Part shown: piece by piece, positions 28,652 through 32,763 of the stretch | How the letters are laid out: the number at the start of each line of letters is the position of its first letter | Numbering within the stretch: the first letter of the stretch is position 1 | Position numbers and translations under genes: made by a program | Source: an uncultured Bacteroidota bacterium | GTDB lineage: Bacteria; Bacteroidota; Bacteroidia; Chitinophagales; Saprospiraceae | Reading direction: 5' to 3' | Length of the DNA stretch: 59,652 nucleotides | Assembly (NCBI GenBank): GCA_937861115.1 | Contig: CALMBD010000307.1 | Span: 1-59,652, forward strand | The notes under the pieces: generated by a model | The model's database searches: none | Told to the model about the DNA's origin: nothing | Seen by the model: the letters and a program-made list of their open reading frames with translations, nothing else

Positions 28652-29572
28652 ATGAAATATTCCATCCTCTATTCGATCTTGACGGTTATGTTAACCCTTT
28701 GGGGTTCTTGCACTGGTGTAACTGTAAACCCTGAAGCAGAGACACAGCGACCGGCGCCGGCGCTTGTTTCGGCGCCACTTGTGCAGGGGTTTAAGGATTA
28801 CTGGTACCAGGGCAAGGCAGAACTCAGTACCTATAATGTTGAACAGGAGCGCTATGGCGAAATACGCAGTGCAGAACAGGTAAATATCTTCGTGACAGAG
28901 GATTTTTCGGCGTCGAAACAGGTCAAACTGGATGACCCGGTTAAAGCAGGATCAGACCGGGTGCCGGTATTAAAGCTCAACGCGCTTCGCCGCTTCCACA
29001 CAGGGATATACGACTACACGCTGATGGAATCTGTTTTTTCTCCCGTTAATGGAAAACCATCCCTGAAAGCAACCTACAGCGTGATCGACTGGTGTGGCCA
29101 GGTGTTCAGTCAGTTCAACCATCGCGAAAACGGCTATCGGGCAAGACTCTTCTCCTATTTTGAAAGCGAGGGCGACACGGATGTTCGCCTGGAGCAGGCC
29201 ATGCTTGAAGATGAACTGTGGACGCGGCTGCGGATAAACCCCGCCACCCTTCCGACCGGAAAGGTTACCTTGATTCCTTCACCCTTTTTCTTTCGTTTCC
29301 GGCATATCCCCTATCAGACATACCCTGCTGAGGTGAGTATAAAGGCGGCGGGAAATGAAAGTGAGCTTCGGGTGACTTACTCAACCCTTCCGCGCAGCCT
29401 GTCCATACGGTATGAAACGGCGTTTCCGCACCGGATACTCGGATGGGAAGAACTGGACAACGGACATGTATTGAGCAAAGGCGTTCTAAAATCGAGCATT
29501 ATGACCGATTATTGGTCGCGTCATGATAATGCTTCAGAAAACCTTCGCGATTCGTTAAAGTTGGTGTTTTGA
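28652..29572 (+). CDS. Predicted lipoprotein, unknown function
   Basis: 306 residues. The N-terminus MKYSILYSILTVMLTLWGSC ends in a plausible relaxed lipobox with Cys20. The mature part has no Cys pair or catalytic motif I recognise. It is mostly beta-like, with segments such as FKDYWYQGKAELSTYNVEQERYG that begin many Bacteroidota surface lipoproteins of unknown role. It follows the GT-C gene by 39 bases on the same strand and may share its transcript. I do not recognise the family with certainty. Confidence 0.7.
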   Translation: MKYSILYSILTVMLTLWGSCTGVTVNPEAETQRPAPALVSAPLVQGFKDYWYQGKAELSTYNVEQERYGEIRSAEQVNIFVTEDFSASKQVKLDDPVKAGSDRVPVLKLNALRRFHTGIYDYTLMESVFSPVNGKPSLKATYSVIDWCGQVFSQFNHRENGYRARLFSYFESEGDTDVRLEQAMLEDELWTRLRINPATLPTGKVTLIPSPFFFRFRHIPYQTYPAEVSIKAAGNESELRVTYSTLPRSLSIRYETAFPHRILGWEELDNGHVLSKGVLKSSIMTDYWSRHDNASENLRDSLKLVF

Positions 29573-29742: not shown

Positions 29743-32700
29743 ATGCAAATTATTGTCCGTACTCTGCTCCCCATCTTAACCGCCTTCACTTTTTGCATCT
29801 CTCTCGGGGCGCAGGACTGTTCAAAGGCAGTAGTAGAAAACAAAAAAATCTCCGGAATCCAAATTGCCCGTTCATCGTCGCTCACCATTGTCGTGCGGGG
29901 AAGTTACAACTACGCTATCGAATTCTTCACAGATGAAAAAGGCATATTTGCCAGAATGACCTCGGTCGGTGGTATTGAGTTTAATCAGGACGACCAGGTA
30001 GTTTTTGTAGATGCCGGCGGTCGCGAGCAGGCATACAAATTTATCGGTATGGATGAAGTGGTGCCGGCTGCCGTCCCAACGCACCGGAACAACCTCCGGC
30101 TCGACCTCGATGCCCTGGAGTGGCTGTCGGGCGCTACCATCAGCGGCGTTAACTTTATCAATTTCGTCGACCGGCAGAAATACAAGTTCACGATCAACCC
30201 TAACCGCCAGTCCGAGTTCAAAACACTGGCCAGTTGTTTCAATGCCCTGATCGAGCGCGATGCGGTAAAGGATACACCCGGGGCAGCCGTTACGCTTCCC
30301 GGCAAATCAAACGAAGCCACCGGCACAAAAGGCGCCAAGCCTGCCGGAGGATCTAATAAAAATGCCGGAAGCGGGGGCGCCGTAAGCGACAACGAAGTAA
30401 CCAACCTGCGTGCCGAACTGGAAAAAACAAAAGACAACCTGCGCAAGGAAATCCAGGCCGAAAAGGAACGGGCCGATGCTATCAAAGCACAGCTCCAACA
30501 GGAAGTAGCGGCTGCCCGCGATGCTGCAAACCAGAAAAAACTGGAATATGCGAATGAAGTACTCGAAGCGCGCAAGAGCAGTCTCGCAGAAATAGAAAAA
30601 GCCAAGGCAGATGCCCAGGCTATTATATCACAAAACCGATCCAAAGCCGACTCTGCCGTTTCCAAAATAACGCTGAGCGTGGACGAGGCTCGTCGGCAAG
30701 CCGGAGAGGAGATTCAGAAGGCCAGATTGGCTTCGGCTGAAGAGGTGAAAAAGGCGCGTGAAAATGCGGCACAGGAAATATCCAATATCAAGGAACGGCT
30801 CGATCAGGCAAAACTGCAGTACAGCGACGAGATCGCCACGGCACGCTCCAATGCCGATGAGGAACTCAAGCGGATTCGCGATGAAAATGCGCGTGTTGTT
30901 GCCGAAGCCCGGGAGCGCGCCAAGATGGAGCAGAACAAAACCACGGAAGACGTGGTCTCTACCAAAAAATCGGCGGCTGATCAAATCCTCAAGGCCCGTG
31001 AAGATGCTGCCAACGAGATTGCCAATATTCGCGAGAACTCGGTAATGGAAAAGCAGCGACTGGCTACAGAACTCGCGGAAAGCCGCCGAAAGGCTGCCGA
31101 GGAAAGGGCATTGGTTCAACAAAACAGCACTTCGGAAATCGCCGAAATACGCGAAAATGTGGCCAAACAGAGAGAAGCCAGCGCGTTGGAGGTAGCAGAA
31201 TCGAAGAAGCGTGCTGCCGAAGAGATCGAACGCACCCGCAATGAAGTAGTCGATCAGCAGGAAAAGGCAAAAGCGGAAAAAGCGGAGATCGCCAAACAAG
31301 TGGTTGAGAGCAAGCAAAAAGCCGCCCAAACCGTCCAGCAGGTGCAGGAAGAAGCAACGAAAGCCATTGCCGATGTACAGGCGCGCGCCAAGGGCCAACG
31401 CGATTCTATTGCTGCGCAGGTTTTGGTTTCCCGGAAAAAGGCTGAAGAAGAAATTGCCCGAATTCAGGAGGAGCTCGCCAAATCCATCGCTGCTGCCAAA
31501 GAGCAGGAAGCCAAAATCAAGCAACAAAGCGCCGAGGAGGTGCTGGCAGCCCGCGAACGCAGCCAGCAGGAGGTCATCAGAGCCCAGGAAGAAGCGCGTT
31601 CCAAGGTGCTGGATGCCAACTCCAAGGCGGATGTCGCCCAGAAACTATATGCCGATGAGGTGGCAAACTCCAAAATGACAGCCGACGAGCGCATCAAACA
31701 AATACAGGCCGAGGCAGCCAATGCCGTACTGGAAGCCAAGAAAAAGCAACAGGAAACCGTAAGTGCCAGTTCACAGGAGGTCGTCGCTTCAAGGGAAAAA
31801 GCCGCCGCCGAAATAGCGGCTGCCCGCGAAAATGCGGCGAAAGAGGTCGCTGCTGCACGCGAGGCGCAGGTGCGTGCGCAACAGGAGAGCGCCAATGCCG
31901 TAGCGGAAGCCAAAAGACAAAGCTCCCAGGCTATCCTGAGTATCAAAACAGCAGAGGCAGATAGCGTGCGCATCGCGCGGGAAGCCAGTTCGCGAGAAAG
32001 GCAACGGCTCGCCAACGATGTCGCCGCCGCGCGCGAAAAAGCAGCATCGGAAATTGCTGCGGCCAATCAGCAGGCCGCCAACGATGTGAAGGCTGCACGC
32101 GAAAACGCCGCCCGGGAAAAACAGCTCAGCGCCGAAACCGTGGGCAAGGCCAAGCAGGATGCCGCAGACCAGGTTGCTTCTGCCCGCGAAAATGCCGCAA
32201 AGGAAGTAGCGGCCGCCAAACAACAGGCTATTGAAGCGATTTCACTGGCCAAGAAAGAAGCCGACGATAAAAAAGCAGGGTTTGCGAAGGACGTTGCCGA
32301 CGCCCAGGAACGCGCCCGAAAGGAAATTACCGATACCCGCGCTCAAGCCGCTACGGAGGTGGCCAATGCCCGACGTGAAGCAGAAGAAAAACGTCGTCAA
32401 TACGCCGAAGAGACCGCTGACGCACGCAAAAAAGCGGCAGAAGAGGTTGGGCTGGCCCAAAAAGAAGCGGCCGAGGCCGTTCAGAAGGCCCGGCAGGAAT
32501 CGGCTGCAAACATAGCTCAAACCCGGGAAAACGAATCCAAGGCCCTTTCTGACCTGAAGGCTCAGGTTGCGGCCGAAGTGGCCAAAGTGAAAAGCGATGC
32601 CGCTCAGGTTGTTGCAGGTGAAAACAAGAAAGCAGAAGACGCCAGACAAATGCAAGCCGTCGAGGCGCAAAAACTTGCCCAATTAAGGGAGGAGGTGAAA

Positions 32701-32763
32701 AAAGTCGAAGAAGACCTGAAAAAACTCAAGGAGGAGGCCGAAAAAGTAAAGAAGAAGGACTGA
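29743..32763 (+). CDS. Secreted 1006-residue coiled-coil protein with 40-residue (11+11+18) superrepeats
   Basis: Residues 1-23 are a signal peptide (ISLGAQ then DC). Residues about 24-170 are a small globular domain with beta-like segments and Cys pairing potential (C26, C158 region). A Gly/Ser/Lys linker follows (about 175-215). From about 216 to the end the protein is Ala/Glu/Lys/Arg rich helix. Residues 327-893 parse into blocks of 11, 11 and 18 residues: the 11-mers resemble ARENAAKEVAA and the 18-mers resemble ARREAEEKRRQYAEETAD. Fourteen units occur, all 40 residues except 487-522 (36) and 803-853 (51). A heptad-like Lys/Glu tail closes the protein. No function is known to me. A structural rod, a periplasm-spanning spacer or an LEA-like protectant are possible. 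Confidence 0.9.
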   Translation: MQIIVRTLLPILTAFTFCISLGAQDCSKAVVENKKISGIQIARSSSLTIVVRGSYNYAIEFFTDEKGIFARMTSVGGIEFNQDDQVVFVDAGGREQAYKFIGMDEVVPAAVPTHRNNLRLDLDALEWLSGATISGVNFINFVDRQKYKFTINPNRQSEFKTLASCFNALIERDAVKDTPGAAVTLPGKSNEATGTKGAKPAGGSNKNAGSGGAVSDNEVTNLRAELEKTKDNLRKEIQAEKERADAIKAQLQQEVAAARDAANQKKLEYANEVLEARKSSLAEIEKAKADAQAIISQNRSKADSAVSKITLSVDEARRQAGEEIQKARLASAEEVKKARENAAQEISNIKERLDQAKLQYSDEIATARSNADEELKRIRDENARVVAEARERAKMEQNKTTEDVVSTKKSAADQILKAREDAANEIANIRENSVMEKQRLATELAESRRKAAEERALVQQNSTSEIAEIRENVAKQREASALEVAESKKRAAEEIERTRNEVVDQQEKAKAEKAEIAKQVVESKQKAAQTVQQVQEEATKAIADVQARAKGQRDSIAAQVLVSRKKAEEEIARIQEELAKSIAAAKEQEAKIKQQSAEEVLAARERSQQEVIRAQEEARSKVLDANSKADVAQKLYADEVANSKMTADERIKQIQAEAANAVLEAKKKQQETVSASSQEVVASREKAAAEIAAARENAAKEVAAAREAQVRAQQESANAVAEAKRQSSQAILSIKTAEADSVRIAREASSRERQRLANDVAAAREKAASEIAAANQQAANDVKAARENAAREKQLSAETVGKAKQDAADQVASARENAAKEVAAAKQQAIEAISLAKKEADDKKAGFAKDVADAQERARKEITDTRAQAATEVANARREAEEKRRQYAEETADARKKAAEEVGLAQKEAAEAVQKARQESAANIAQTRENESKALSDLKAQVAAEVAKVKSDAAQVVAGENKKAEDARQMQAVEAQKLAQLREEVKKVEEDLKKLKEEAEKVKKKD
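30721..32421 (+). repeat. 120-bp coding superrepeat array (14 units of 40 residues)
   Basis: Codons for residues 327-893 fall into units of 11+11+18 residues. I checked unit starts in the DNA at 30721, 31309, 31789 and 32422, and all are in register with the model. The DNA copies are diverged, so selection on the protein pattern, not recent duplication, seems to keep the period. Confidence 0.85.

Follow-up and report, generated by a model that had tools for sequence, protein, structure and literature searches.

Several described systems provide a background for the locus analysed here. The arms of SMC proteins are antiparallel coiled coils; Omp-alpha of Thermotoga and other periplasmic spacers are extracytoplasmic coiled-coil rods with a small end domain, which are equipped with SLH and membrane-anchor segments and are not as long as the rod described below; subunit H of the V-type ATP synthase is a cytoplasmic protein with a hendecad helix; and LEA group 3 proteins have an 11-residue periodicity. 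Similar in design are Scy and FilP, which are cytoplasmic and whose 51-residue superrepeat, said to have been described by Walshaw in 2010, reportedly combines hendecads with one heptad (4 × 11 + 7). In one account (PMC9858780), Scy and FilP are presented as long coils, rich in alanine, that have extended runs of hendecads and a DivIVA-like N-terminal motif, and alanine-rich hendecad cores are described for dimeric FilP and Scy.

The protein considered here is encoded in a 59,652-nucleotide stretch of DNA, hereafter the window, which corresponds to contig CALMBD010000307.1 of an uncultured member of the Saprospiraceae (GCA_937861115.1). Its rod resembles Scy and FilP in being alanine-rich and hendecad-dominated, with a period of 3.635, and the protein differs from them in its signal-like start, its beta head, its 40-residue unit (3 × 11 + 7), its occurrence in the Bacteroidota and the lack of a match to the Pfam DivIVA-like N-terminal domain (E up to 0.1). 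The SLH and membrane-anchor segments by which Omp-alpha is generally described were likewise not found in it. Neither the whole protein nor the head matched any Pfam or NCBIfam model above its curated cut-off; the whole protein matched no Pfam family at E values up to 0.1, hence no LEA or DivIVA-type family, and its profile matched no PDB entry at E values up to 0.001. A weak NCBIfam match of residues 271–355 to V-type ATP synthase subunit H (19.5 bits), a model only 103 positions long, falls far below the cut-off of 107. An incomplete search of the literature for a 40-residue-repeat coiled coil, for a Saprospiraceae coiled coil (with or without periplasm) and for a Bacteroidetes hendecad returned nothing. 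The family therefore seems to be undescribed in the libraries searched, as the initial annotation had proposed for its whole class of protein; the principle is not new, since an 11-11-18 order amounts to three hendecads and a heptad, and hendecads with a periodic heptad are already known; the rods of Scy and FilP are likewise long hendecad coils rich in alanine (PMC9858780).

Gene layout and the N-terminal head

The gene (29743..32763, + strand, as are all features of the rod protein given below) was taken from the list of open reading frames and encodes a protein of 1006 amino acids, whose head-plus-rod architecture is common to 27 full-length close relatives, that of the window included. Residues 1–23 (29743..29811) form a presumed signal peptide, in which ISLGA precedes Gln-Asp-Cys, and hydrophobic N-termini are found in most of the relatives. 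A globular beta head (residues 24–176; 29812..30270) follows, for which AlphaFold2, run on residues 22–180 with 31 sequences, predicted a beta-rich domain (pLDDT 87.7, pTM 0.84). The combination of a signal-like N-terminus and a separate globular head, as first annotated, is thus upheld, the former by eye and the latter by a confident prediction. Cys26 (29818..29820) and Cys165 (30235..30237) are invariant in the 32-row alignment A3 and presumably form a disulfide with each other, which would suit an oxidised, exported head domain. The head is joined to the rod by a variable linker (residues 177–217; 30271..30393) with low conservation, many indels and a pLDDT of 33–36 in the blocks covering residues 191–220.

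By eye, no usual lipobox precedes Cys26, where the window sequence reads Gly-Ala-Gln-Asp; in the 24 other rows, Asn, Asp, Gln, Gly, Thr, Lys or Ser stands directly before the cysteine, in most cases with a Gln ahead of it. A C-terminal sorting domain of the T9SS type is also lacking, as the last part of the chain is a charged coil of the heptad type and no sorting-domain model was matched in Pfam or NCBIfam, and no outer-membrane anchor was seen in the rod protein. A cytoplasmic or membrane-tethered filament of the Scy/FilP kind, with the N-terminal hydrophobic stretch as its anchor, would have the same kind of alanine-rich hendecad rod (PMC9858780), but the signal-peptide-like end with the invariant cysteine pair behind it, together with the lack of a DivIVA-type family match (Pfam, E up to 0.1), makes this reading very improbable.

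The 40-residue unit and the geometry of the rod

A regular superrepeat of two 11-mers and one 18-mer had been parsed by hand in residues 327–893, which correspond exactly to bases 30721–32421, and the analysis confirmed it. Autocorrelation of residues 218–1006 gave its highest value among lags 1–139 at lag 40, with an identity of 0.242 compared with about 0.115 in shuffled sequences (z 12.6 with 60 shuffles, z 11.1 with 500), and scoring with BLOSUM62 gave z 14.3 at lag 40 and z 14.4 at lag 11. Amphipathicity alone was rejected as the source of this signal: in shuffles that preserved the 3.636-residue amphipathic phase, lag 40 retained z values of 6.5–8.2 and lag 80 of 5.0–6.5, indicating that the repeat is more than amphipathicity. 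In the DNA, the predicted lag of 120 and its double, 240, rank as the top two (z 8.9 and 9.3, respectively), although Tandem Repeats Finder reported no 120-base array, the units having diverged. Recent tandem duplication was not supported as the origin of the repeat, since no such array was found and the identity of third bases, at the 181 lag-40 sites that share an amino acid, is 0.31 compared with 0.40 expected.

The register of the units was examined with a profile of the seven regular units in residues 523–802 (31309..32148), which score z 4.7–7.8 when each is left out of the profile. This profile recovered the four regular units of residues 327–486 (30721..31200), starting at 327, 367, 407 and 447 and unseen by it, exactly in the annotated register with z 6.3–7.4, against a null that preserves composition and not amphipathicity and under which off-register maxima of z 3–5 are also present. 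The two units that had been singled out as irregular, namely, a 36-residue unit at 487–522 (31201..31308) and a 51-residue unit at 803–853 (40 + 11; 32149..32301), scored z 3.5 and z 4.1, respectively, the latter rising to 5.6 when started at 814. The repeat signal extends beyond the annotated limits in both directions. Downstream, the last repeat-like stretch (residues 854–945; 32302..32577) has unit scores of z 5.0, 4.7 and 5.5 at 854, 894 and 905, two of which lie beyond residue 893; upstream, the N-terminal rod (residues 218–326; 30394..30720), which has a period of 3.625–3.645, shows maxima at 236, 276 and 316 (z 4.3–5.1) that are 40 residues apart and 11 residues off the later register. 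Positions 8, 19 and 37 of the unit are the most hydrophobic, with spacings of 11, 18 and 11, which upholds the 11 + 11 + 18 order; each unit thus combines three hendecads with a single heptad, or 40 residues per 11 turns.

Across residues 218–940 the hydrophobic seam has a period of 3.635 (power 70.9) with a phase wander of about 60 degrees, so that the value of 3.636 (40/11) predicted from the unit was closely matched over 720 residues. At a helix rise of 0.1485 nm per residue, 788 residues correspond to about 117 nm, in agreement with the length of at least 85 nm first proposed. Given that the period of the seam approximates 40/11, a nearly straight, almost unsupercoiled rod of this length is expected. 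The length-variable C-terminal stretch with its terminal coil (residues 946–1006; 32578..32760) contains indels among close relatives, and residues 960–1004 have a period of 3.47, that is, a left-handed coil of the heptad type. In a full-length AlphaFold2 monomer of modest quality (mean pLDDT 71.3, pTM 0.28), residues 218–1005 are helical except for four breaks, located at or beside low-confidence stretches (396–402, 460–472, 672–677 and 874–879). Unit positions 1, 7 and 23 (in residues 327–486 also 12) are charged, adjoin the core and are highly conserved, and the outer positions 17, 21, 28, 32, 35 and 39 are mostly the least conserved; conserved charges near the core and variable outer positions would suit a parallel oligomeric coil. 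A charge-driven axial stagger for lateral assembly was considered and set aside: in the charge analysis the prominent lags span just a few residues, the best long staggers reaching z 3–5, and none of these was convincing.

Conservation, distribution and gene neighbourhood

The window protein was compared with 31 close relatives (32 proteins in total, 27 full length), of which 24 were placed in the genus of the window and the other seven are L031, L041, L042, L045, L051, L058 and L059; head identity to the window is 59–92% in the 30 relatives of alignment A1. Among the 27 full-length proteins there is no indel across window residues 209–943, and in successive bins of 40 residues, as far as residue 937, the mean identity to the window is 61–79%. 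Lag 40 is significant in all 27 (z 8.4–13.6), leading all other lags in 20; among 23 proteins from other genera it is likewise present in every case (z 4.3–18.7) and ranks first in 15, which shows that the 40-residue pattern is old and has been kept across genera. Up to about residue 937, internal rod indels in these 23 proteins are confined to two sites, one around residue 510 (21 of 23) and one around residue 847 (5 of 23, each with 29 additional residues), and these coincide with the two irregular units. The net sizes at the two sites (+22, +11, +4, −7 and +29) are all near whole turns of 3.636 residues. Rod identity is 0.19–0.38 in the four most distantly related proteins, close to the level of about 0.24 for matches between units, so that their register is not certain.

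Over 46 proteins the conservation of the rod (0.684) is about that of the head (0.671), and in 23 of 23 proteins from other genera the rod, over its first half, resembles the window more closely than the head does, although in one case by just 0.30 to 0.29 and with rod identity inflated by the narrow composition of the rod. Rod dN/dS (Nei–Gojobori) is 0.011–0.067 for the 9 of 12 pairs whose dS is finite, though saturated in several, and 0.011–0.039 in the four pairs with dS up to 1.2; for the head it is 0.012–0.034 in the 8 of 12 pairs in which it is finite. By these estimates the rod is under strong purifying selection. SMC proteins from 16 genomes of the genus served as a control: their arms, which like the rod are long coils of conserved length with no indels in the genus, have a mean identity of 69% to the window's genome. 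Conservation of the rod is thus not unique, and the case for exceptional conservation per se is weakened. A functional long coil of fixed length shows such conservation; what is distinctive here is that rod and head are conserved to the same degree, unlike in SMC, where the ATPase heads (90–92%) are far more conserved than the arms.

These results bear on the suggestion that the protein has no fixed partner and acts as a lone single alpha-helix or as a protectant of the LEA kind. The rod is very rich in Ala, Glu, Lys, Arg and Gln (Ala at 181 of 789 positions in residues 218–1006), and its 11-residue periodicity recalls that of LEA group 3. Against this stand the nearly one-phase seam over 720 residues (power 71), the strong purifying selection, the absence of internal rod indels in close relatives and the absence of any LEA family from the Pfam scan (E up to 0.1). 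Since the rod is register-locked, strongly conserved and unmatched by LEA families, the protectant role put forward in the initial annotation was not supported, and it is the least probable of the readings weighed here.

A sequence search with the head gave matches in 34 of 37 genomes of the genus, the window's own included, one of them with merely 24% identity at a contig end, and a single match within the own genome. In overlapping genome samples, head profiles matched 35 of 298 genomes (19 of 140 genera) for the order and 150 of 298 (66 of 112 genera) for the family, 148 being without a match, and one profile matched 5 of 395 for the class, four of these five belonging to the same family and the fifth lacking the rod. 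Among the 150 family match rows, 128 lie in stop-to-stop frames of 850–1100 amino acids (mean 1013, sd 37), with 21 shorter and one longer. The taxonomy labels of the 31 relatives are mostly Saprospiraceae/Saprospirales, the rest being Bacteroidota/Bacteroidetes, Chitinophagales, Lewinellaceae and one Thermoanaerobaculia; the locus so labelled (L042) has the rod gene together with several neighbours found in the window and is probably a misbinned contig.

One member, of 967 amino acids, has lag 40 as its top lag and a period of 3.635 in 3 of 3 complete copies read (L179–L181), in a genus that we take to be Saprospira. Abundant 7.5 nm bundle fibres are described in the envelope of S. grandis, and in Flavobacterium johnsoniae a multirail structure lies under the outer membrane with GldJ associated (PMC9870892). 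The rod protein could accordingly be a component of such fibres (multirail) under the outer membrane of gliding Bacteroidota, but this is improbable: F. johnsoniae has similar GldJ-bearing rails (PMC9870892), yet the head was found in so few genomes of the class. As its one occurrence outside the family in the class sample lacks the rod, the rod protein is, as judged from its distribution, unlikely to be a shared rail component. Of the 298 family genomes, 280 have GldJ-like matches (2 exceeding the curated cut-off) and 150 have the head, so no tight link was seen, and the comparison says little about a connection with gliding.

The neighbours of the rod gene change between genera, and no conserved neighbour or partner gene was identified. 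An upstream gene of 306 amino acids (28652..29572, +), with a possible lipoprotein start by eye, has a match next to the rod gene at 13 of 31 loci; among these are L053 and L057, at which the remaining neighbours are different or were not detected. In the loci from other genera (L062 and L094–L116, with genes named by eye from their sequences), pyrR-like and pyrB-like genes, each at 11 of 24 loci, often lie ahead of the rod gene, and a secreted thioredoxin-like gene follows it in 8 of 24. The raw CAI of the rod gene, 0.623, ranks third among the 37 genes of the window; after correction for amino-acid content its synonymous codon use ranks 22nd, an average position that lends no support to high expression and gives no sign of an abundant structural protein.

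Proposed role of the rod and recurrence of the head

We infer, with a probability of roughly 0.55, that the protein is a Sec-exported, homo-oligomeric structural rod of the envelope or surface of Saprospiraceae. The repeat, the period, the predicted helix and head, the conservation and the taxonomic spread come directly from computation and speak for this reading; export, the disulfide, oligomer state, straightness, location, partner and function are inferred. In such a protein, the C-terminal heptad zipper would start assembly, and the chains would associate in parallel as a homo-oligomer, the alanine-rich core making a dimer the most likely form. The 40-residue unit would hold this core on one face nearly without supercoiling, yielding a near-straight rod of about 117 nm, and the N-terminal beta head, closed by its disulfide, would hold a partner in the envelope or at the surface. 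As the rod is far too long to cross the periplasm, it would run along the envelope or stand out from the surface, acting as a strut of fixed length or as the subunit of a filament. The estimate is kept near one half by the lack of an anchor, a partner and a conserved neighbour, by the average codon use and by the absence of a clear stagger. A more specific version, an exo-cytoskeleton of the Saprospiraceae in which a rod of fixed length (about 117 nm), sequence-specific and nearly straight and built on a new superrepeat of three hendecads and a heptad, would follow the outer membrane, serve as a strut or as the subunit of a filament and impose a defined spacing, is speculative and, on balance, unlikely.

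The chief rival is an extracellular fibre or stalk, anchored at the surface by one end and binding a substrate or a neighbouring cell through its head or tail. The signal-like start, the length of the rod and the variable linker between head and rod would all fit such a stalk, as would the occurrence of the head on its own and in tandem, in the manner of binding modules (see below). It is nevertheless doubtful, as none of the T9SS-type C-terminal domain, the lipobox or the outer-membrane anchor was seen, and the low dN/dS of the head shows that it is not diversifying as many adhesins do.

For the structural rod, the interest lies in a natural coiled coil that keeps a period close to that of the undistorted alpha-helix (40/11) over more than 700 residues and is conserved family-wide, and on which coiled-coil theory and design could test their treatment of straight rods. 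It also draws attention to a secreted structural element of environmental Bacteroidota that seems to be undescribed; as about half of the sampled genomes of the family carry it, deleting the gene in a cultured member could reveal what it does.

When the 32 heads were compared singly with Pfam, the best E value was 0.011, for one member; the best fold match in the PDB had an E value of only 0.036, and the best sequence-profile match one of 0.12. The best fold match of the head (residues 22–180, 29806..30282) was to a viral protein of 149 amino acids in BFVD (A0A1B0WMU9; E 2e-5, TM 0.54, 14% identity). Head-like sequences also occur in other contexts. A secreted-looking protein of 1766 amino acids in G749 (L171:3855-9155, −) contains four head-like matches preceding TPR repeats and a CHAT domain (E 4e-62), and G313 encodes a similar two-head TPR protein that is incomplete in the stretch read; the head is thus a reusable module, probably for binding. 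A secreted-looking protein of 171 amino acids (L173:3192-3707, −) consists of the head only, in a genome that also has a match of full-length size. Finally, a protein from another family (L062:7894-10500, +) has a related head followed by an 18-residue repeat with a period of 3.60, compared with 40 residues and 3.635 in the window, which suggests a similar head on a different straight helix.
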